A stretch of DNA of 64,000 nt, taken from the NCBI GenBank assembly GCA_009773475.1, contig WSXV01000001.1, positions 310,001 to 374,000 of the forward strand, written 5' to 3'. The notes beneath the pieces are model-generated. The model made no database searches, was not told the DNA's origin, and saw nothing but the letters and a program-made list of their open reading frames with translations. The translations under genes and the position numbers were made by a program. Of this stretch, positions 2,335-59,324 are shown in pieces. Source of the stretch: Desulfobulbaceae bacterium. GTDB taxonomy: Bacteria; Desulfobacterota; Desulfobulbia; Desulfobulbales; Desulfocapsaceae. Numbering within the stretch: position 1 is the stretch's first letter; the number at the start of each line of letters is the position of its first letter.

Positions 2335-2806
2335 GCAAACCTCCTTGCTTGATCTGCTGTTCTGTTTAAGAGCCGTTACCAAATAACAGGGCCATTTATA
2401 TCAATTTCGTTACGGCTGCTTATGCCGCTTCCGTTCAATCAATGGCTATGTTATTTTTTTACAGCGGCGTAAAATATAAAAATGAGAATAAAAGGTTCTT
2501 GCGTAATGCCTCAAACCGCCCGAAAAATTTAAACATTTACCGGGTTGAAGTCAAGATGGCAAATGAGCAAGATCGCATAGGGGGATCGAAATACCGAGAA
2601 TAATGGGTGTATCCCCTGATTTTTCTTGAATTACCCCGCTCTTTCACCCATAATTATTTTCTGCCTCTGCAGATATAAAGGCTAAAGGTAAAAGGATGGA
2701 GTGATGACAAAGAAGGAGATGGTGGAATGAGCCGATCCGTCAGCTGCAGCTGCCTTGCCGTCTAAATGAATTACCATGATGGTTCCCTTATGGATGGAGT
2801 GTATTC
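2335..2806. other. Intergenic region upstream of lon
   Basis: A 472-base gap between the divergent lon and beta-helix genes. It must hold the lon promoter, but I see no convincing heat-shock consensus. The lon-proximal part holds a decayed family 1 repeat (listed separately). The remainder is AT-rich with no ORF that has a ribosome binding site. Confidence 0.6.
2366..2470 (-). repeat. Family 1 two-hairpin repeat, decayed copy
   Basis: Read on the minus strand this has ACGCCGCT, then AGCGGCATAAG, then CCGTAA, and later GTAACGGCTCTTAA, the box order of the better copies at 5401 and 54782. GCCGCT pairs with AGCGGC and GCCGT with ACGGC, but the inner arms no longer match well. It is called a degraded member of the family from box content only. 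Confidence 0.55.
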
Positions 2807-5213: not shown

Positions 5214-5258
5214 GGCGCCGTAGAGTGGGAAGAATAAGGAAAGATCTTCTGTATTTAT

Positions 5259-5394
5259 TGGTAAACGCCACTCAAAGAAACAGCTGAAAGCCCCACCTTC
5301 TTTTAAGGAGAGGACTGGATTGTGGTTATTTTTTTGGAGTGGCAGAAGGTGCCGTTATAGCAAAGGGCAGGTAATGCTTGACGTTGTTGTTAAC
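5259..5394 (+). repeat. Family 1 repeat, partial copy
   Basis: Begins with a 28-base stretch (5259-5286) that recurs exactly at 5395-5422. GCCACTC (5267-5273) pairs perfectly with GAGTGGC (5337-5343), followed by AGAAGGTGCCGT. The second hairpin is weak, and no matching ACGG-CACCT arm is found before the next copy begins. It looks like an older or interrupted copy lying head-to-tail with the intact one. Confidence 0.65.
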
Positions 5395-5400
5395 TGGTAA

Positions 5401-5510
5401 ACGCCACTCAAAGAAACAGCTGGTGGGGATTGCTGTTTCTTTGGAGCGGCATAAGATGCCGTAGACCACAAAGGCAAGAAAAAGCCCTTGCCCTTGTGGT
5501 AACGGCATCT
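5401..5510 (+). repeat. Family 1 two-hairpin repeat, well-formed copy
   Basis: Hairpin 1: CGCCACTCAAAGAAACAGC (5402-5420) against GCTGTTTCTTTGGAGCGGC (5432-5450), one mismatch. Then ATAAG. Hairpin 2: AGATGCCGT (5454-5462) pairs exactly with ACGGCATCT (5502-5510), enclosing ACCACAAAGGCAAG and its near-perfect complement (5487-5500) around the 8-base loop AAAAAGCC. The element ends directly against AAGGAG (5511-5516), the ribosome binding site of the ATPase gene at 5524, so in RNA it would fold in that gene's leader. Confidence 0.85.
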
Positions 5511-5523
5511 AAGGAGCGTTCAC

Positions 5524-6390
5524 ATGAAAGAATTACTTATCTTAAGCGGCAAGGGCGGAACCGGCAAGACCAGTCTGGTGGGGTCTATCGCGGCACTTGC
5601 CGGAAACAAGATCATGGTTGACTGTGATGTGGATGCCGCTGATTTACATCTCCTGCTTGCCCCCAGACCCCGGAGTAAGAATGAATTCCGTTCCGGGGTC
5701 AAGGCAAAAATGATGAATGATCGTTGCAGTGCCTGTGGACTGTGTGTTGAACTGTGCCAGTTTGATGCCATCACCATGGGCCCTCAGACGGCGGTCATTG
5801 ATCCTCTTGGCTGCGAGGGTTGTGGCGTCTGCGCCCATTTCTGTCCGGAACAGGCCATTGAACTGGAAGAAAATCATTGTGGGAGCTGGTACGTTTCCGA
5901 TACCGATTACGGTCCCATGGTCCATGCGCAGCTTTTTGCAGGCGAAGAGAACTCCGGCAAGCTGGTCTCCTTTATCAAAAGGGAGGCCCGTACTCTGGCA
6001 GAGCAGACAGGAATAGATTTAATCGTCATTGATGGAGCACCCGGGATCGGTTGTCCGGTAATTGCCTCGCTCTCCGGAGTCAACACGGTGCTGGCGGTGA
6101 CCGAACCAACTCAGTCCGGCTGGCACGATCTGGAGCGGGTTCTTGATCTGGCCGTTCATTTTAAAGTTCCGGCCTTTGTCTGTATCAATAAATGGGATCT
6201 CTATCCGCAGATGACCGAGGAGATCGAGGCTTCCTGTGCGGCTCGGGGGGTGGAGGTTTTAGGGCGGATTCCCTTTGATCCCATGGTGGTCGCTGCCCAG
6301 ATTCAGGGCGTTCCGGTGGTCAGTCTTCCACAGAGTCCGGCTGCAGAGGCAATTCGTACCATCTGGCAAGGGATGAGCGCTCGTATGTAA
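5524..6390 (+). CDS. MinD-superfamily P-loop ATPase with inserted ferredoxin domain (second of pair)
   Basis: A 288-residue paralogue of the upstream ATPase, with GKGGTGKTS at residues 9-17, DGAPGIGCP near residue 168, and a 2[4Fe-4S] ferredoxin insert with Cys at 68, 71, 74, 78 and 97, 100, 103, 107. The two proteins probably act as a heterodimer on Fe-S clusters delivered by the NifX-like partner; this is inferred from the conserved gene trio. The ATG is preceded by AAGGAGCGTTCAC. Directly upstream lies a two-hairpin repeat whose last base touches the ribosome binding site, which could affect its expression relative to the first ATPase. A strong terminator follows at 6419. Confidence 0.9.
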   Translation: MKELLILSGKGGTGKTSLVGSIAALAGNKIMVDCDVDAADLHLLLAPRPRSKNEFRSGVKAKMMNDRCSACGLCVELCQFDAITMGPQTAVIDPLGCEGCGVCAHFCPEQAIELEENHCGSWYVSDTDYGPMVHAQLFAGEENSGKLVSFIKREARTLAEQTGIDLIVIDGAPGIGCPVIASLSGVNTVLAVTEPTQSGWHDLERVLDLAVHFKVPAFVCINKWDLYPQMTEEIEASCAARGVEVLGRIPFDPMVVAAQIQGVPVVSLPQSPAAEAIRTIWQGMSARM

Positions 6391-8140: not shown

Positions 8141-8577
8141 TGACGATGCCAGGCCTTGCATAAGCTGGGGGGGAAAGCCTGCTGTCGTTGGGCAAGACCT
8201 CTGAAAACGTCCATCGATTCTTCCATACTCTGCGGCCGATCCCGTGGGGATGCAAAGTGGGATTGGCCTCTTGAGCTAAATTCTGTTTGATTCGCAATGA
8301 ATTTTAGACTACAAGTCTTAATGGTTTTTTTCTTGTGCATTTATCTTGGCGTTGTCCCGTCGTTTCAGGGATGATTTTGTTGGGGGCAACGCTTGATGGT
8401 GTTGCCGGAAAAAACAATACTGGATGTGGGCCTTCGCAAGCTCCCCTTCCTGCCTTTTAGTGACTTACAGACTATTTTCTTGTTTTTTTGCAAGAAAATA
8501 GTCTGTAAGTCACTTGTCCCGTTTATCGGGGTTTTGTGTGTCCAATACGGTGAACAATACTTGAGCTGGAGGTCTAA
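8141..8577. other. Intergenic region between fumarase and zinc-ribbon gene
   Basis: A 437-base gap. It contains a GGCAAC...GTTGCC hairpin near 8382-8412 and a family 2 repeat at 8455-8534. No ORF with a ribosome binding site was seen. The leader of the next gene follows the repeat directly. Confidence 0.6.
8455..8534 (-). repeat. Family 2 hairpin repeat
   Basis: AGTGACTTACAGACTATTTTCTTG (8459-8482) is perfectly complementary to 8491-8514, giving 24-bp arms around an 8-base loop. Next to it is CCCGTTTATCGGG (8518-8530). Read on the minus strand this is AACCCCGAT..ACGGGACAAGTG followed by the long hairpin, the same order as copies at 27495, 35439 and 59243. Confidence 0.85.
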
Positions 8578-10473
8578 ATGAAGATGACGTGTCCCCATTG
8601 CGGGGTGATTGGTTCTGCCCATGATTCCCTGCCTGGAGCAAAGGTTCGATGTCCTCAATGCGATAAGGTTTTCAAGGTCACGGAAGAGGAGGTCACTTGT
8701 CCGCATTGCGCCGTGACTGGGTCGGCATTCGGCTCAGTGGTGGGCACAAAATTCAGGTGCCCTCAGTGTGATAAGGTCTTTCTGCTGCCCGAGGAAGAAC
8801 TCGCTGGCCCACCGGTGTCCGACAGCGTCATTGCTGGTGGCATAGAAGAGATCGTGCCAACGGAAGCGGCGATTGTGGCAGAGCCCCTTGCTCTATCGGA
8901 AGTGGAGCCAGTGTTGATGCCTGAGAGTATGGATAGCTCCGAACTGGAATTGGCAGCAGAGCTTGATGAGCGTCAATCAGTGCCGGAAATGGAGGCGAAA
9001 GCCACATCACGGCCTTCTTTTACCGGCATTCAAGCATCTGTGATGGCAATGGGATCGTCTGTTGCCGTGGAAAAGGTTGTGCCAACGAAAGCGGCGATAG
9101 TGGCCGAGCCTGTTGCTCTGCCGGAAGTGGAGCCAGTGTCGATGCCTGAGAGTATGGATAGCTCCGAACTGGAATTGGCAGTTGAGCTTGATGAGCGTCA
9201 ATCAGTGCCGGAAATGGAGGCGAAGGTCGCATCTCGGTCTTCATTTACCGGTATTCAAGCATCTCCGATGGCAATGGAATCGTCTTTTGCCGTGGAAAAG
9301 GTTGTGCCAACGAAAGTGGCGATTGTGGCTGAGTCCCTTGCTCTGCCGGAAGAGGAGCCAGTGTCGATGCCTGAGAGTAAGGATATCTCAGAGCTGGAAT
9401 TGGCAGCAGAACGAGACGAGCGTCAATCAGTTCCGGAAAAGGAGGCGAAAGCCACATATCGGCCTTTATTTACCGGTATTCAAGCATCCCCGATGGCCAT
9501 GGAATCCTCTGTTGCCGTGGAAAAGGTTGTGCCAACGAAAGTGGCGATAGTGGCGGAGTCTGTTGCTCTGCCGGAAGTGGAGCCAGTGTCGATACCTGCA
9601 AGTATGGATAGCTCCGAACTGGAATTGGTAGCAGAACTAAAAGAGCGTCAATCAGTTCCTGAAATGGAAGCGAAAGCCGCATCCCGCCCCTCTTTTACTG
9701 GCATTCAAGCATCTGCGTTGGCAATGGAATCGTCTGAGGAAGCTGTTATCGAGCTGCCGCAAGAGGTTGTAACGGGTGTAGCAGATGTTCCAGAAATGGA
9801 ACCGGAGTTGGAGATGGAGAGCCAGCTCGCACTGGAACTAGTCGCCGAGTTAGAACCAGAACCAGAAGCTAAAGTAGAGCCTGAATCTGAGCCTGAACCT
9901 GAAATTGCTTCTGAACCGGAGCTTGCCCTGGAGCCTGAGCTCGAACCAGAATCGGTGTTTGAGCAGATTCCAGAGGTCAAGCCTGAAGAGATGGTTGAGC
10001 CTGCAGGTGAGATATCCCTTGAACCCGCCGTGATACCGGCTCCAGAATCTATTGCAGAGCTGACTCTTGAATCTGCACCAGCACCAGCTCCTGCTCCAGA
10101 AAAAGTCACAGAACCTCTCCCTGAACCTGAAATCGTCACCGAGCTGGCGCCCGAACCTGAATCCGTAGCTTCTATTATCGAAGAATCTGTTCCGTCCGAT
10201 GCTGGAGAGAAGGAACCAGTGGCTGAAGAGCCGGTGCCGCCAATTTTGCCCACGCAGATCTGCAAGGGGTGTGGTGAATCTTTTCATCCACAATTACTCC
10301 AGGAAGTGGAAGGGAAGTCGTATTGTGGTGTCTGTCAGCTGCGTATTGCCGCCACCACGGAGCCTGCTTCGAGATTCCGCGGGGGGAAACTGCGGGCTGT
10401 CCTGGCTGCAATTCTTCTGCTTGGCCTGATGGCCCTTATTGGCCTGGCCCTGGTTAAATTCGGAATTTTATAG
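8578..10473 (+). CDS. MJ0042-type zinc-ribbon membrane protein with four 75-residue repeats
   Basis: A 631-residue protein of unknown function. It opens with two MJ0042-type zinc ribbons, CPHC..RCPQCDKVF at about residues 5-34 and again at 41-70. Then come four tandem 75-residue repeats (residues about 93-392), acidic and rich in Glu, Ala, Pro and Val, followed by a long Glu-Pro low-complexity stretch. Near residue 562 is a third Cys pair motif, CKGCGESF...YCGVC. It ends with one transmembrane helix (about 607-629). The layout suggests a cytoplasmic or periplasmic spacer anchored by its C-terminus. Proteins with such N-terminal zinc ribbons are common in Deltaproteobacteria, often annotated near motility or pilus genes; here a chemoreceptor follows. 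The ATG follows GGAGGTCTAA, a strong ribosome site. Confidence 0.8.
   Translation: MKMTCPHCGVIGSAHDSLPGAKVRCPQCDKVFKVTEEEVTCPHCAVTGSAFGSVVGTKFRCPQCDKVFLLPEEELAGPPVSDSVIAGGIEEIVPTEAAIVAEPLALSEVEPVLMPESMDSSELELAAELDERQSVPEMEAKATSRPSFTGIQASVMAMGSSVAVEKVVPTKAAIVAEPVALPEVEPVSMPESMDSSELELAVELDERQSVPEMEAKVASRSSFTGIQASPMAMESSFAVEKVVPTKVAIVAESLALPEEEPVSMPESKDISELELAAERDERQSVPEKEAKATYRPLFTGIQASPMAMESSVAVEKVVPTKVAIVAESVALPEVEPVSIPASMDSSELELVAELKERQSVPEMEAKAASRPSFTGIQASALAMESSEEAVIELPQEVVTGVADVPEMEPELEMESQLALELVAELEPEPEAKVEPESEPEPEIASEPELALEPELEPESVFEQIPEVKPEEMVEPAGEISLEPAVIPAPESIAELTLESAPAPAPAPEKVTEPLPEPEIVTELAPEPESVASIIEESVPSDAGEKEPVAEEPVPPILPTQICKGCGESFHPQLLQEVEGKSYCGVCQLRIAATTEPASRFRGGKLRAVLAAILLLGLMALIGLALVKFGIL
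8854..9753 (+). repeat. Four in-frame 225-bp tandem repeats inside the zinc-ribbon gene
   Basis: The anchor GTGCCAACG recurs at 8854, 9079, 9304 and 9529, exactly 225 bases apart. Each unit encodes the motif VPTxxAIVAE...PEVEPVSMPES...SELELAxELDERQSVPEMEAK...FTGIQAS. The copies differ mainly by single substitutions, and the reading frame is kept. Confidence 0.95.
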
Positions 10474-14451: not shown

Positions 14452-14549
14452 AACTGTTTGCTGTGGAAAAATAGAAGGGTGACCCGGTGAAGGGGTGAAA
14501 AAATGTCCTCTCCAGCCTCCTGTGTCAGTGGTGCTCACCGGGGATCATT

Positions 14550-14638
14550 AGGAGCTGTTATAAGAAATATACCCATTTCCTTACGGCCCCTTATGCCGTT
14601 CATGAACCTAAAAGTACTGGTTATTTTTGAATGACGGC
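14550..14638 (-). repeat. Family 1 repeat, degenerate copy between gspD and gspE
   Basis: On the minus strand it starts with GCCGTCATTC immediately after the gspD stop codon, continues to GAACGGCATAAG, GGGGCCGTAAG and closes with CTTATAACAGCTCCT. GCCGT pairs with ACGGC, and AGGGGCCGT with ACAGCTCCT (one mismatch and one G-U pair). Inner arms are short. It splits two genes of a secretion operon. Confidence 0.65.
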
Positions 14639-16966
14639 TTACATCTTTTGCAGTCGGGCGATATTTTCCTGACAGGCCATGATCAGCCCTTCATCAATCC
14701 GGGTGGGGCTTGAATCATTGGTCGCGGTCTGAGCCTTGGCATTGTCGAGAATGATTTGATAGTATTTGATCGCCTGGATAGGGTCGTTTTCCCTCTCGCT
14801 GATTACCCCTAAGTTGAACTGGGCATAGGGGTTCTGCGGGGCAATTTTCAAGGCCTTGTTTAAGGATTCTTTGGCTTCCGCGTATTTTCCCTGCTGCATC
14901 TGCTCAAAGCCCTGATCAATAAGGCCCATGACGTGGTTATTGTCCATCGGGTTCTCCAGCAACTGTTTGACCTCGGGCAGGAACTTTTCGACGGAATCGG
15001 TTTTCATGGCCGTCACCCCTTCCATGTCGCCGGGATTTTTAATGATCCTGGGGGTGATGAAGATGAACATATTGGTTTTCAGTCGTTTCGTGCTTTTTTC
15101 CTTGAAAAGCCAGCCGACTACTGGAATGTCGCCAAGAAGGGGGACCTTGTTCTCGCTTTCCGTTTCATCCTGGCCAATGATTCCGCCGATGACAATGGTG
15201 TTGTTGTCTTTGACCAGCACCGTGGTGGTGGCCGTCCGCTTGAAGGTGGTTGGTTTGTCTGCCTCAGAGCCGTCTTTGAGCTTGCTGACCTCGGTTGCGA
15301 TCTCAAGACGAAGGATATCTGCCTGATTGATCTGGGGGGTGATGGTCAGCTTGGTGGCGATATCCTTGTACTCATAGTTCTGATAGCCGATGGAGCCATT
15401 ATCAACTATCCCCGCGTTGTTGGTGGTGTCTATGGCGGCCTGGGTGCGGGTGAGGTAGGGCGTGTTTTCACCGATACTGATTTCGGCCTTTTTGTTGTCC
15501 GTGGTCAGAATCTGGGGAGTGGCGATAACATTGACATGGGAATCTCCCTTGTAGGCCTTTAAGATGGCTGCGATATTGGGAAAAGTGACGCCGCCGATCT
15601 CGATTCCCTGTTTGAGCACGCCCAGGGAAAAACCCTTATTAATGGTAGGATTGGTCGCATTAATCGGTACTCCATTCCCGTCCAGGATTGAGCCGATAGT
15701 CCCCGAGAGCGTGGTTCCGGCTGCGCCGCCAAATCCGGTCAGGATATGGCCGTCACCCCCGTCAAAATTTCCCACGCCCAACCAGTTGACTCCCACGTTG
15801 AAGGAGGAGTCCGCATCCACCTCCATGATCAATGCCTCCAGATAGACCATCCGCCTGGGGATGTCGAGCTTCTTAATCACATTCTCCAACTCCTTGAATT
15901 CGGAGCGCGAGGCAGTAATGATCAGGGAGTTGGTGTCAGTATCAGGCATGATCTTGACATCCTTGGATATTGCCGGGGTCTCACCTTTTTTGGCCGGATC
16001 GCTACTCTGCTGTCCGGGCAGGGCGGTCAACACCGTTGACAGTTCCTTGGCCGTTGCGTGCTGAAGGTAGACCACATGGATGTTGCCTTCGTTTAACTTC
16101 ATCTCGGTGTCCATCATCATAATCAGGCGTTTCACCCGGGCTGCATGCATGGGTGAGGCCACCAGAATGATGCTGTTGATCGGCTCATAGGCCACAACCT
16201 TGAGCGTGGTATTCGGCGCTCCTTTTGCAGCGGCACCGCTTTGCGGGAAGAGGGCGTTGATGGAAGTGGCGGCCACGGTGGCAGAGGCGTGCTTCAGCGG
16301 AATAACTTCAACCTCTTCGTCGGAGAGCGGGACATCCAGGGATTCAATGATGGTCAGAAGCTTCTGGATGTTGGATAAGGTCTCAGTGACAATCAGCATC
16401 CCTGACTGGGTGTGGGCAATGACCACGGAAGTTTTCGACACCAGCGGGGCCAGGACCTTTTTCATCTCTTCAGGAGTGGTGTAGCGCAGGGGAATCAGCT
16501 GGGTGACGATTTTATCCTCCGGCAGAGACGCATTCCCATGGCTGATGGTGCTGGTGTTCTGGGTAAGGGCGCGTGCGGCGGGCATGATTTTGGTGATCGA
16601 GCCAGCGGGCACGGTGGCAAATCCATTGACTTCAAGGACGGATTCAAAGAGCTGGTAGGCCTCATTTTCAGAGATCTTGGTGGGAGAGATAATGGTGACG
16701 TTTCCCTGGACGGCCTTGTCGACGACAAAGTTTTTCCCGGTTAACTCGCTGATATATTTTATAAAAAGGTGGATATCCACATTATTGAAATCAATGGTGA
16801 TAAAGCGCTCGGCTCCTTGATCCCGGGACGGTGCCGGGTTGGAAGTCGGAGCGGCATGGAGTAAAGGCATGAAGAAAAAGATCGCCGTGAACTGCAGGGC
16901 GAGAACAAAAAACATGCCAAGGATTCTGCGGGTGCATACGAGTTGGAAAGGATGCATCAAATTCAT
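14639..16966 (-). CDS. gspD: Type II secretion outer-membrane secretin GspD with C-terminal TPR extension
   Basis: A 775-residue secretin that forms the outer-membrane exit channel. A signal peptide spans about residues 1-38. The N0 domain (ITIDFNNVDIHLFIKYISELTGKNFVVD) and N1-N3 repeats follow, then the secretin core with VPLLGDIPVVGWLFK, the hallmark motif near the lip. Unlike classical GspD, the chain continues past the core with tetratricopeptide repeats at about residues 660-745 (GKYAEAKESLNKALKIAPQNPYAQFNLGVI). This tail may replace a pilotin or bind peptidoglycan-side partners; that is inference. The start overlaps the gspC stop by four bases (ATGA), indicating coupled translation. Confidence 0.95.
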   Translation of the reverse strand: MNLMHPFQLVCTRRILGMFFVLALQFTAIFFFMPLLHAAPTSNPAPSRDQGAERFITIDFNNVDIHLFIKYISELTGKNFVVDKAVQGNVTIISPTKISENEAYQLFESVLEVNGFATVPAGSITKIMPAARALTQNTSTISHGNASLPEDKIVTQLIPLRYTTPEEMKKVLAPLVSKTSVVIAHTQSGMLIVTETLSNIQKLLTIIESLDVPLSDEEVEVIPLKHASATVAATSINALFPQSGAAAKGAPNTTLKVVAYEPINSIILVASPMHAARVKRLIMMMDTEMKLNEGNIHVVYLQHATAKELSTVLTALPGQQSSDPAKKGETPAISKDVKIMPDTDTNSLIITASRSEFKELENVIKKLDIPRRMVYLEALIMEVDADSSFNVGVNWLGVGNFDGGDGHILTGFGGAAGTTLSGTIGSILDGNGVPINATNPTINKGFSLGVLKQGIEIGGVTFPNIAAILKAYKGDSHVNVIATPQILTTDNKKAEISIGENTPYLTRTQAAIDTTNNAGIVDNGSIGYQNYEYKDIATKLTITPQINQADILRLEIATEVSKLKDGSEADKPTTFKRTATTTVLVKDNNTIVIGGIIGQDETESENKVPLLGDIPVVGWLFKEKSTKRLKTNMFIFITPRIIKNPGDMEGVTAMKTDSVEKFLPEVKQLLENPMDNNHVMGLIDQGFEQMQQGKYAEAKESLNKALKIAPQNPYAQFNLGVISERENDPIQAIKYYQIILDNAKAQTATNDSSPTRIDEGLIMACQENIARLQKM

Positions 16967-27389: not shown

Positions 27390-27494
27390 CTTTTTCTTCC
27401 TCCTTTCGGTTGCCAATGCCTGAACCGGTCTTATTCTCTCATCACACTTTTGCTATTTCACGAATGCGATGGCGTTTTGTTTCATGGCAATTGC

Positions 27495-27575
27495 TAACCC
27501 GTTGAACGGGACAGGTGCATTTCGCAGATTATTTTCATGCAAAAAAACAAGAAAATAATCTGTAAGTCACTAAAA
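27495..27575 (+). repeat. Family 2 hairpin repeat
   Basis: AACCCGTTGAACGGGACAGGTG followed by a long hairpin: CAGATTATTTTC on the left arm (from 27525) pairs with GAAAATAATCTG on the right, loop CAAAAAAA, ending GTAAGTCACTAAAA. The outer left arm (GCATTTCG) has mismatches. It lies in the ferritin leader, about 70 bases before its start codon. Confidence 0.8.
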
Positions 27576-35438: not shown

Positions 35439-35520
35439 CTAACCCCGATGGACGGGATAAGTGTCTTTCGCAGCTTATTTTCTTGTAAAAAGAACAAGAA
35501 AATAAGCTGTAAGGCACTAA
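35439..35520 (+). repeat. Family 2 hairpin repeat
   Basis: CTAACCCCGATGGACGGGATAAGTG then a hairpin with CAGCTTATTTTCTTG pairing with CAAGAAAATAAGCTG around TAAAAAGAA, ending AAGGCACTAA. At the arm position where other copies have GAT/ATC or GAC/GTC this one has GCT/AGC, so the pair is kept while the bases change. It lies in the leader of the U32 gene, 25 bases before its start. Confidence 0.85.
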
Positions 35521-48689: not shown

Positions 48690-49823
48690 ATGATAGCAAA
48701 TCTTGAGTATGCAACCTTGCAGCAGATCTGGTGGATCCTGTGCAGTGTGGTTGGTTCATTGTTTCTGTTCCTGACCTTTGTTCAGGGCGGCAATACCCTG
48801 CTCTGGCAGGTGGCGAAAAATGATGTGGAAAGTTCCCTGGTGATCAACTCCCTGGGGCGTAAGTGGGAGCTGACCTTCACCACCCTGGTTCTCTTTGGAG
48901 GGGCTCTGTTTGCTGCCTTCCCCAAATTTTATGCCACCAGTTTCGGTGGAGCCTACTGGGTGTGGATGTTGATTCTCTTCACCTTTATTCTCCAGGCGGT
49001 CAGTTACGAATATCGGAAAAAACCTGATAATTTCCTCGGTGCCAAAGTCTATGAGTCCTTTTTGCTGATCAACGGGACGGTGGGTATTCTGTTGATTGGT
49101 GCTGCCGTCGGGACCTTTTTTACCGGCTCCAATTTTACCCTTAATCTCTACAATCAGGTGACCTGGACAAACCCCCTGCGAGGACTTGAGGCAGCTTTTT
49201 CGCTGTTTAACCTTTCCCTTGGGCTCTTTCTGGTCTTTAATGCGCGGGTCCTGGGTGGCATGTATCTGCTCAACAATATTGATTTTTCAGCCATGGACGA
49301 TTTTCAGGGCCGGTTGCGCAAGGCGGTGTTGATTAATTTTCTCTGCGCCCTGCCTTTCCTGCTCTATGTTCTGGTATCGCTGCTCATGATGAAGGGTTTC
49401 AGTGTTGATGCCGCCGGGGTGGTTTCCATGGTTGCCAACAAGTATTTGCTGAATCTGCTGGCCATGCCGCTGGTTTTGGGACTGCTGCTGGTGGGCCTGG
49501 TTCTGGTGATTGTGGCCGTGCTTATTACGGCCTTCAAGGGCAGCACCAAAGGAATCTGGCTGGCGGGACTGGGAACGGTTCTGGTGGGCCTGTCCGTCTT
49601 CTTTCTGGCGGGATTTAACAATACGCCCTTTTATCCCTCCAAAGCGGATCTGCAGTCCAGTCTGACCATTGTCAACGCCTCTTCAAGCCGCTACACGCTC
49701 ACCGCCATGACCTATGTGGCCCTCGGGATTCCCTTTGTCCTGGCCTATATCGCCTATGTGTGGAGTAAGATGGATGCGAAGAAACTGGCGGCCCATGAAG
49801 TTATGGATCACGAGGCTTATTAG
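48690..49823 (+). CDS. cydB: Cytochrome bd quinol oxidase subunit II
   Basis: A 377-residue subunit II, partner of CydA. It begins YATLQQIWWILCSVVGSLFLFLTFVQGGNTLLWQVAKND, as in CydB of this type, and has eight or nine helices. Its TAG stop (49821-49823) overlaps the first bases of a family 1 repeat, so the end of the gene and the edge of the repeat coincide. Downstream are three tandem repeat copies and then a 30-codon membrane ORF. Confidence 0.96.
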   Translation: MIANLEYATLQQIWWILCSVVGSLFLFLTFVQGGNTLLWQVAKNDVESSLVINSLGRKWELTFTTLVLFGGALFAAFPKFYATSFGGAYWVWMLILFTFILQAVSYEYRKKPDNFLGAKVYESFLLINGTVGILLIGAAVGTFFTGSNFTLNLYNQVTWTNPLRGLEAAFSLFNLSLGLFLVFNARVLGGMYLLNNIDFSAMDDFQGRLRKAVLINFLCALPFLLYVLVSLLMMKGFSVDAAGVVSMVANKYLLNLLAMPLVLGLLLVGLVLVIVAVLITAFKGSTKGIWLAGLGTVLVGLSVFFLAGFNNTPFYPSKADLQSSLTIVNASSSRYTLTAMTYVALGIPFVLAYIAYVWSKMDAKKLAAHEVMDHEAY

Positions 49824-49927
49824 GTCCCGTATGAAAAGAGCAAAGCTTTTCTTGCTCTTTTCATTTACGGGACCTTATGCCGCTTCGCAGAATCAGCCAA
49901 TCGTTTCCGGCTGATTATGCGAGTGGC
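49822..49927 (-). repeat. Family 1 two-hairpin repeat, tandem copy 1
   Basis: On the minus strand: GCCACTCGCATAATCAGCC, loop GGAAACGATT, GGCTGATTCTGCGAAGCGGCATAAG, then AGGTCCCGTA, arm ATGAAAAGAGCAA, loop GAAAAGCT, complement TTGCTCTTTTCAT, ACGGGACCT. AGGTCCCGT and ACGGGACCT pair exactly. Its outer end overlaps the cydB stop codon. Confidence 0.9.
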
Positions 49928-49940
49928 CGTTGCAGCTCCA

Positions 49941-50045
49941 AGGTCAGTCATAGAAGAGCAAAGCTTTTCTTGCTCTTTTCATTTACGGGACCTTATGCCG
50001 CTTCGCATAATCAGCCAATCGTTTCCGGCTGATTATGCGAGTGGC
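49941..50045 (-). repeat. Family 1 two-hairpin repeat, tandem copy 2
   Basis: Nearly identical to copy 1, 119 bases further on. Hairpin 1 is perfect (GCATAATCAGCC with GGCTGATTATGC). The closing arm is altered (AGGTCAGTCAT), so hairpin 2 is shortened. Confidence 0.9.
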
Positions 50046-50058
50046 TGTGGCAGCTACA

Positions 50059-50187
50059 AGGTCAGTCATAGAAGAGCAAAGCTTTACTTGCTTTTTTGAT
50101 TTACGGGACCTTATGTTCTGCTTCGCAGAATCAGCGACATCAAGCCTCGCTTATGGAATAAAAAAATAACGCTGATGATGCGAGGGA
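50059..50187 (-). repeat. Family 1 two-hairpin repeat, tandem copy 3 (diverged)
   Basis: Starts 118 bases after copy 2. The arm-2 region (GAAGAGCAAAGC...) and TTACGGGACCTTATG are kept. Hairpin 1 is CGCAGAATCAGCG with CGCTGATGATGCG but a longer loop with an insertion (ACATCAAGCCTCGCTTATGG). Confidence 0.75.
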
Positions 50188-50234
50188 GTTTTTCCTTGGA
50201 TCTTAGAAAAAATAAGTTTTAGGAGGTAACAATT

Positions 50235-50327
50235 ATGACCGTAGTACTGCTTGTTTCCTGGATAGCCCTGATTTTTGTGTCTTACAAGGGAGCGGTTATG
50301 GCCCTGGATAAGGCTGGCCTGTTATAA
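50235..50327 (+). CDS. 30-residue single-helix membrane peptide
   Basis: A small ORF encoding MTVVLLVSWIALIFVSYKGAVMALDKAGLL. It is too short for most gene finders but has a strong Shine-Dalgarno (AGGAGGT, 50221-50227) at good spacing, one hydrophobic helix (about 3-18) and its own terminator 22 bases downstream. It resembles in size, not in sequence, the CydX/CbdX peptides that stabilise bd oxidases, and it follows cydB with only repeats between. Coding is likely; a bd role is inferred from position. Confidence 0.7.
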   Translation: MTVVLLVSWIALIFVSYKGAVMALDKAGLL

Positions 50328-54321: not shown

Positions 54322-54889
54322 TTCTGTCTCCTTGATTGATAGTCACAGACAATGGACATGGCCACAGTCCCGCTCCGGTGGAGGATATCGGGTACCCCGC
54401 TGGATGGTCATCTTCGAGAAGAACTGGGGCTCCATCTGAAGAAAATATCGTTTAAATCGGTTGTTGTTTTTGCTGAGGCTGAAATAAAGAGCGAGCTTCC
54501 CCTTCCCTCAACTCAGCTTGATTTGATAAGATGATGTAATCATACACCGTGAATTTGAATTGTACAGGGAATGTGTCTCATTCTTGTCGTGCGAGGGGTA
54601 ACGATGAGGCATTGCATGGGGAGGTTTAAAGTAACAGTTTTAAGGAAACATTGCGCGTGGACTTTCGGCATCTTGTATGAACTAACTACGACCGATGAAA
54701 TTTGTATGGATGCTAGTCATTGAGACGTTAGACCCACTCGGCCGCCATGCCGATCTGGGAGCAACCGATGGAATTTGCTAGACGCCACTCACTGAAACCG
54801 CCGAAACGATTGGCGGTTTCAGTGAAGCGGCATAAGAGTCCGTAAGCTCTCCGAGCAACAAACAGCCGTTGCTCGGAGAGCAACGGCCT
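54322..54889. other. Intergenic region with a family 1 repeat
   Basis: A 568-base gap. Its right end is a well-formed family 1 repeat. Between about 54650 and 54780 are fragments recalling the family (CTTTCGGCATCTTG, CCCACTCGGCCGCCATG, GACCGATGAAATTTG and ACCGATGGAATTTG), perhaps decayed copies. A 60-codon open frame at 54352 has no support. Confidence 0.6.
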
Positions 54890-54892
54890 CTA
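54782..54892 (+). repeat. Family 1 two-hairpin repeat, well-formed copy
   Basis: ACGCCACTC, arm ACTGAAACCGCC, loop GAAACGATT, arm GGCGGTTTCAGT, GAAGCGGCATAAG, AGAGTCCGT, arm GCTCTCCGAGCAAC, loop AAACAGCC, arm GTTGCTCGGAGAGC, then ACGGCCTCTA. Both inner stems are perfect. The last three bases (CTA, 54890-54892) are the TAG stop of the HAD gene on the other strand. Confidence 0.92.
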
Positions 54893-55572
54893 AAAAATTA
54901 TTTCATCAAAGGTCACAATGGAGGGAAACTCATGGGAGTAGCGCACCGGTTGGCGTGAGCTGGGACGGGCGACAAAGATAAGAAATCCCATTTCGTACTG
55001 ACTGGCCGAGCGCAGAACCTTGGCGGTATCGTCGGCCAGCAGGGTGCGTTTGCGATCATAGGGCAGCATTGCTTCCAGTTTGTTCCAGAAAGCCGGGTGT
55101 TCCTTGGCCTCTCCCACTTCCTCCGCGCAGATAATGCGGTCAAACCAGCTGCCGAGCGCGGTCTTGCGCAGCTTGATCTCCAGGGTTTTGGAATGGGCGT
55201 TGGTGATGAGATGGACCTGTTTTCCACTCGTCCGGAGGAATTTCAGGAAGTCGATGACAAATGGATGCACCTGGATGAGATGATCCACCTTGCATTTGAG
55301 CTCGGGGATATCAAGCCCCAGCTGTTCCGACCAGTAGTCAAGATCCGTCCACTGCAGGGTGCTCTCCACGCCTTGGTAGCGTTTCAGCAGCTCTTTGCGG
55401 GCCTGATCGCTTGTCATCTGATTCTGCTCAGCAAAGATTTTGGGTACATATTCTTCCCAGAAAAAATCATCAAAGTACTTATCCAGAAGGGTGCCGTCCA
55501 TATCGAGAAGCACGGTGTCGATTTCAGACCAGGAAAAATTCGGATGGATCTGTTGGTGGTGTTGCAATGTGC

Positions 55573-55576
<4 letters not shown>
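54890..55576 (-). CDS. HAD-superfamily phosphatase (YrfG/GMP-IMP nucleotidase type)
   Basis: A 228-residue HAD hydrolase. Motif I is LLDMDGTLLD (nucleophile and acid Asp), motif II LITNAH, motif III region KEHPAFWNKLE with Lys, and motif IV LLADDTAKVL. The cap-region pattern FDDFFWEEYVPKIFAEQNQM matches YrfG, which dephosphorylates GMP and IMP. The ATG overlaps the mfd stop by four bases, so it is coupled to mfd. The TAG stop is supplied by the end of a family 1 repeat. Substrate by family resemblance only. Confidence 0.88.
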
Positions 55577-59242: not shown

Positions 59243-59324
59243 TTTAACCCCGATGAATAGGATACGTGCCTTACAGATTATTTCTTTGTATAAAAAACAA
59301 GAAAATAATCTGTAAGGCACTAAA
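59243..59324 (+). repeat. Family 2 hairpin repeat
   Basis: TTTAACCCCGATGAATAGGATACGTG, then GTGCCTTACAGATTATTT with its complement AAATAATCTGTAAGGCAC (left arm has one shift, TTTCTTTG versus CAAGAAA) and loop TATAAAAAA. The outer pair here is GCC/GGC where the copy at 8455 has GAC/GTC. It lies between the mfd start and the bamA terminator. Confidence 0.85.

Follow-up and report, generated by a model that had tools for sequence, protein, structure and literature searches.

A two-hairpin, probably MITE-like repeat family at gene 3' ends in a Desulfocapsa-like member of the Desulfobulbales

Repeat units downstream of cydB and across the genome

The window, i.e. the whole 64,000-nt stretch of DNA analyzed, belongs to the 3.03-Mb genome of a Desulfocapsa-like MAG (Desulfobulbales). 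Downstream of its cydB gene three tandem units of an element of approximately 115 bp, consisting of two hairpins, were located on the minus strand at 49815–50197 with a spacing of 118, or 119 as measured between model starts, in agreement with the array given in a preliminary description of this DNA; the boxes and loops which it considered common to the array and to the copies at 5401 and 54782 were recovered as well. The features of the window are as follows.

48690..49823, plus strand: cydB (Pfam PF02322, E 2.3e-65), its TAG stop lying within the element end
49815..49937, minus strand: array-terminal family-1 unit (99.3 bits)
49822..49875, minus strand: hairpin 2 of this unit (from sequence, fold and orthologue pair counts)
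49879..49927, minus strand: hairpin 1 of this unit (from fold and mismatch counts)
49934..50054, minus strand: second, internal array unit without the closing ACGG box (74.4 bits)
50053..50197, minus strand: third array unit, degenerate (18.3 bits; fold z -0.8)
50235..50327, plus strand: 30-codon ORF 3' of the array, without a Pfam match (from sequence; similar ORF in relatives)
5257..5379, plus strand: degenerate unit upstream in the array of the 5393 copy (31.8 bits)
5393..5517, plus strand: family-1 copy (118.3 bits)
54774..54898, plus strand: family-1 copy (136.7 bits)
14543..14645, minus strand: copy of subfamily 2, the MITE form (30.7 bits)
2361..2478, minus strand: subfamily-2 copy (30.8 bits with covariance model R1; 114 bits with model R2, which includes this copy)

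The CTAA at the 3' end of the array-terminal unit overlaps the cydB stop codon TAG (49821–49823). Hairpin 2 of this unit has the base AGGTCCCGT/ACGGGACCT and the 8-nt loop GAAAAGCT, and its hairpin 1 (GCCAC...GCGGC) carries an A·C mismatch that recurs in the family. Two of the cydB-array units were 97% identical across 118 nt. The short ORF beyond the array we take, by position and recall, to be CydX-like. In the copy at 5393 the CTAA continues into CTAAGGAG right before a start codon at 5524, the 3' CTAA of the copy at 54774 contains the TAG stop of a convergent HAD-type gene (54890–55576, minus strand; Pfam PF00702), and the left-end TAA of the subfamily-2 copy at 14543 is the stop codon of a gspD-type gene (14639–16966, minus strand; Pfam PF00263/PF21305).

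Two further kinds of repeats were seen in the window. A third hairpin family, at 8457–8530 (minus) and 27494–27573, 35439–35520 and 59244–59323 (all plus), and also at loci L180 and L199, follows the same plan: CTAA, a short hairpin (e.g., CCCCG/CGGGG), ATAAG or similar, a long AT-rich hairpin and CTAA. Four tandem 225-bp repeats are present at 8838–9812 within an ORF at 8578–10473.

The short boxes of family 1 were unremarkable by themselves (ACGCCACTC with one mismatch allowed gave 15 matches in the window against 12.2 expected), so that the significance rests in the element as a whole. A search of the window genome with blastn gave 58 matches at E ≤ 10, and covariance model R1, built on 25 copies, gave 114 matches at E ≤ 1, opposite-strand echoes included. 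Finally, 98 units were kept, 65 of them scoring at least 50 bits; they comprise 97 of 124 covariance-model rows plus the window unit at 49934–50054, taken from the E ≤ 1 search, while each of the 27 dropped rows was opposite in strand to a kept unit, which 25 of them overlapped and two weak ones (L206 and L228) adjoined. All 17 genomes of the genus matched R1, with 14 to at least 60 matches each, and in the search over 58 genomes weak matches were also obtained in 9 of the 41 outside the genus. The covariance-model search of the genome and its relatives proposed in the preliminary description produced many further copies. As judged by Pfam, the genes adjoining copies included cydA, cydB, a HAD hydrolase, GspD and, at another copy, FlgH. 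In viral contigs the MITE end had no exact match and the linker pattern had two, both without the rest of the element; with one copy of each form as query, plasmids gave no match. Three regions between inverted copies were inspected by eye for possible cargo, and their genes were ordinary as far as recognized (the Pfam check covered FlgH only).

Conservation of pairing and mismatch bias

In single-strand DNA folding, 200 of 200 shuffles were surpassed by four of the five window units, with z values of -8.5 (5401), -10.6 (54776) and -9.6 and -6.1 for the first two array units; the third array unit, at -0.8, no longer outfolds its shuffles. In an alignment of 25 copies with 34 pairs, 163 cells carried both-side changes, compared to 50.8 (sd 5.7) in shuffles, the covariation score was 0.488 against 0.144 (sd 0.011), both-side changes occurred at 23 of the 34 pairs, and all five measures exceeded 500 of 500 shuffles, these pair counts taking related copies as independent. 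The element occupied orthologous positions in several species, although absent at cydB in L276, L278, L279 and L286 and at the HAD-type locus in L268 and L269. Both-side changes were found in 8 of 40 pairs among six aligned orthologues of the cydB locus (2.7 in shuffles) and in 18 of 47 pairs among seven of the HAD-type locus (6.4 in shuffles), each structure being derived from one member, which biases the counts in its favor. The cydB alignment leaves out L274 (contig end), L281 (foreign insert), L285 (masked) and L280 (not read), and the HAD alignment leaves out L266 (truncated copy) and L258, L259, L260, L263 and L271 (gene end outside the printed stretch). The central observation of the preliminary description, that stems change while their pairing is maintained, thus held both genome-wide and at two orthologous loci.

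The mismatches were counted in 97 units of family 1, of which 65 belong to the window genome and 32 to relatives. Hairpin 2 had 12 GT and 13 AC mismatches and the body of hairpin 1 had 15 and 3, while one base position of hairpin 1 carried a fixed A-C mismatch in 47 of 88 hairpins. RNA stems tolerate G-U but not A-C, and the control, 32 tRNA sequences in 30 loci of the window genome, had 31 G-U and one A-C among 384 acceptor and T-stem pairs. The symmetry in hairpin 2 gives no sign of selection on one RNA strand, and the fixed A-C mismatch argues against plain RNA selection in hairpin 1, whose GT lean is compatible with single-strand or RNA selection. The hairpin bases of the related order-wide form described below had about 16 G-U and 8 A-C, as counted from the alignment table.

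These counts bear on the structured RNA suggested earlier: hairpin 1 leans to GT, and hairpin 2 shows no wobble bias. As a cis-acting RNA (e.g., a processing or decay site), selected at the RNA level and not currently mobile, the element would be expected to keep its structure at orthologous loci throughout the genus, as it does, and the GT excess in the hairpin-1 body is in line with this. However, the hairpin-2 mismatches were strand-symmetric, unlike those of tRNA, the A·C at the hairpin-1 base is no wobble on the strand favored by its body, Rfam had no match at the gathering threshold within the window, which contains several copies, and the distribution was patchy (6 of 297 phylum genomes). 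We regard such an RNA as unlikely.

Complementarity could result from selection, from copying of one arm onto the other, or from both, and such copying could add to the covariation signal. In its extreme form, the covariation would be due entirely to arm-to-arm copying (quasi-palindrome correction) without selection, the element being neutral debris. The few wobble pairs, the symmetric hairpin-2 mismatches and the polar arrays described below, which slippage predicts, all fit. But the boxes, loops and linker, which arm copying does not protect, were largely kept at two orthologous sites whose flanking intergenic DNA had diverged by eye, and neither arm copying nor neutral debris explains the exact placement at stop codons. 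This explanation deserves attention, but we doubt that it is the correct one.

Tandem arrays and placement at stop codons

All 25 arrays, each with two or three units, had their best-scoring unit at the 3' end (12.2 expected), and the closing arm of hairpin 2, with the closing ACGG box, was kept in 24 of 25 terminal units against 2 of 27 internal ones. Units within one array mostly had common stems by eye, which makes the arrays look like internal duplications rather than repeated insertions. As a separate observation, in L281 (the same site as L099) a different GC-rich hairpin of approximately 60 bp was inserted inside the hairpin-2 base downstream of cydB.

All 48 array-terminal copies scoring at least 50 bits ended with CTAA, and in 28 of the 48 the CTA, read on the other strand, was the TAG stop of the convergent neighboring gene. 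The exact stop position would be expected by chance in about 3.5%, for a random tolerated TA site and orientation, as calculated from DNA outside elements at the same loci, which had 1882 intergenic TA sites and 140 TAA/TAG stops, with gene ends taken from a simple longest-ORF caller. Independently of any gene caller, among frames of at least 100 codons entering the end, the window genome had the TAG in frame in 33 of 38 and other genera in 9 of 10; these figures omit the genus relatives, partly picked for their cydB or HAD loci (21 of 25; all together 63 of 73). The low-scoring units of the window genome gave only four open frames from 33 units, three in frame. In subfamily 2, with frames of at least 80 codons, the right end was in frame in 15 of 21 and the left-end TAA in 13 of 21. 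The remaining 20 of the 48 copies had the end off any stop codon, six of them ending 7–43 nt ahead of a start codon. In the third hairpin family of the same genome the end lay on an in-frame stop in one of six copies.

The codon preceding the TAG was TTT in 10 of the 28 copies; background genes had it in 5 of 230, or in 5 of 45 when those with a last codon ending in T are taken. A T ahead of the stop was found in 28 of 28, which follows from the CTAA end and hence is no additional evidence. Since TA together with the first base of the element makes a stop (by consensus, TAG at the right end; the left end of the MITE form can give TAA), insertion there is harmless and the protein need not change. 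Harmless intergenic sites are, however, far more common, so that either a preference or later retention is required. Among the 16 genus genomes with cydB, nine had a family-1 copy at the cydB stop, six had none and one was not read; two of the six had a subfamily-2 copy further on. A role as terminator was rejected: the terminator-like match at the array was at chance level (1 against 1.1 expected), and no T-run follows hairpin 2 in the direction of the gene.

A position next to stop codons is also known from the attC sites of integrons, which adjoin the stops of cassettes, and integron integrases were above the cut-off in 9 of the 17 genus genomes. To read the copies as attC sites or their remnants nevertheless seems extremely improbable. 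All integron integrase matches in the window genome were below the cut-off, the host genes of the copies include core genes, and among 97 copies GTTRRRY, the attC core consensus, turned up in 9 on one strand and in 5 on the opposite one, i.e. there is no conserved box. The best integron integrase match of the window genome was a fragment with a stop (contig C6, 237835–238236).

Origin and comparison with known elements

The weaker copies that R1 also picked up in other genera belong to an order-wide form of approximately 115 bp, aligned as 31 sequences (20 from other genera plus 11 window-genome copies of that form). It reads TAAGCCG...AAATAACATGGCCA on the left with the inverted arm on the right, and the ends of this MITE form are GGAGCCGTTACG...CAGCGGCT. 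In the 31 copies its terminal inverted arms covary (score 0.256 against 0.134, above 500 of 500 shuffles), with 82.1% of cells paired across 16 arm pairs, and the hairpin bases covary too. In place of paired terminal arms, the arms of family 1 make two separate hairpins. Under strict filters, model R2 detected the MITE form in 6 of 297 phylum genomes. Besides the window genome these were a second genome of its order, three from a single distant family and one from another.

An empty site was found at cydB in L276, which reads TTTTTAGAAG; L282 and L284 hold a copy there followed by TAGAAG, and in L284 the left copy of the duplicated target reads TTTTGA. At this one locus, occupied by subfamily 2, the target duplication is TA or TTA, the two being inseparable. 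A TA duplication fits transposases of the IS630/Tc1 type and TTA those of the IS5/PIF type. The possibility of a MITE, raised in the preliminary description, thereby received support for the related form from its inverted ends and this duplication. No transposase with matching ends was found in a search that covered Y1_Tnp genes. The copy downstream of cydB in L282 is approximately 45 bp, hardly more than two inverted ends, and a longer one occupies the same site in L284.

The other mobile possibility raised there, transposition of a REP-type element by a RAYT/Y1 single-strand transposase, appears quite improbable. Genes for Y1_Tnp were present in 17 of 17 genus genomes, E. coli REPs are likewise reported near stop codons (PMC12306157), and long inverted repeats are described on either side of some RAYT genes, with dispersed repeat families (PMC3733652). 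Yet none of 34 Y1_Tnp loci searched (100.8 kb, of 75 matches) carried a significant copy at E ≤ 0.01, the best E being 0.37; as only about 3 copies would be expected in them at the density of the window genome, this depletion is weak evidence. Insertion by Y1 transposases is not known to produce a target duplication of the TA/TTA type such as that at the empty site above. The stems, at approximately 15–20 bp, are longer than the 5–13 bp (GTAG) and 8–9 bp (CGTC) given for tagged REPs (PMC3733652). No short palindrome bearing a GTAG or CGTC tag was found in the element, its stems being too long and its ends being CTAA/TTAG; a GTC after hairpin 1 on the minus strand was noticed by eye in many copies. 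Repeats of the GGGGTCAG type lie on the flanks of two Y1 transposase genes, at L032 and L035; by eye they seem to belong to a different repeat family.

Taken together, the element is likely to represent a family of non-autonomous, MITE-like mobile elements, apparently undescribed so far; among the matches listed in the open literature no paper on it was found. The preliminary description was partly borne out; the placement at stop codons and the polarity of the arrays were absent from it. According to our model, the two-hairpin form would have been derived from the MITE form, and a transposase would act in trans on TA-flanked ends. Copies at stop codons may owe their retention to the position of hairpin 2, which in the mRNA follows immediately on the stop and would affect termination or 3'-end stability; judged by its start at the very stop codon, hairpin 2 is likely to influence termination or the decay of 3' ends. 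Arrays would extend by slippage within one element, copying hairpin 1 and the hairpin-2 core but not the closing box, and template switching between arms may help to hold the stems complementary.

A further-reaching version, to be taken as tentative at best, is that the element targets stop codons or is actively maintained there, i.e. a transposon-derived 3'-end module with hairpins held complementary by arm copying and providing dispersed post-transcriptional control across the genus. If true, such a module has captured the translation stops of tens of genes in each genome, including core genes. The MITE-like family itself, if confirmed, would be a clear case of a mobile element preferring stop codons, with cydB loci with and without a copy serving as natural comparisons, and it would become directly testable whether hairpins of this kind act as parasites or as regulators at 3' ends. 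The polar arrays would then be a record of hairpin-driven duplication.

The MITE-like family is probably a new one, retained at gene 3' ends and, by analogy, acting there like REP, ERIC or BOX. Similar to ERIC, RUP and Correia elements, it is dispersed, intergenic and within their range of approximately 100–155 bp, and it resembles ERIC-type units in inverted ends with TA duplication and RUP in the TA target (PMC2229807, PMC2759123, PMC10969869); ERIC at gene 3' ends is reported to change the stability of the upstream mRNA (PMC2229807). What sets family 1 apart from the descriptions of these elements is its pair of separate, covarying hairpins and the polarity of its tandem arrays. With REP/BIME it shares palindromic structure, many copies and a frequent location within 15 nt of stop codons, and REPs no more than 15 nt from a stop codon are stated to be able to stall ribosomes (PMC12306157, citing Liang 2015); it differs in longer stems, CTAA/TTAG ends and no association with Y1 genes in 34 loci. 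The BOX element of Streptococcus pneumoniae is reported to supply the stop codon of 36 genes (PMC3049150). Compared to BOX, the excess over chance was measured here, the placement is exact to one base, and the MITE form can supply a stop from both ends.
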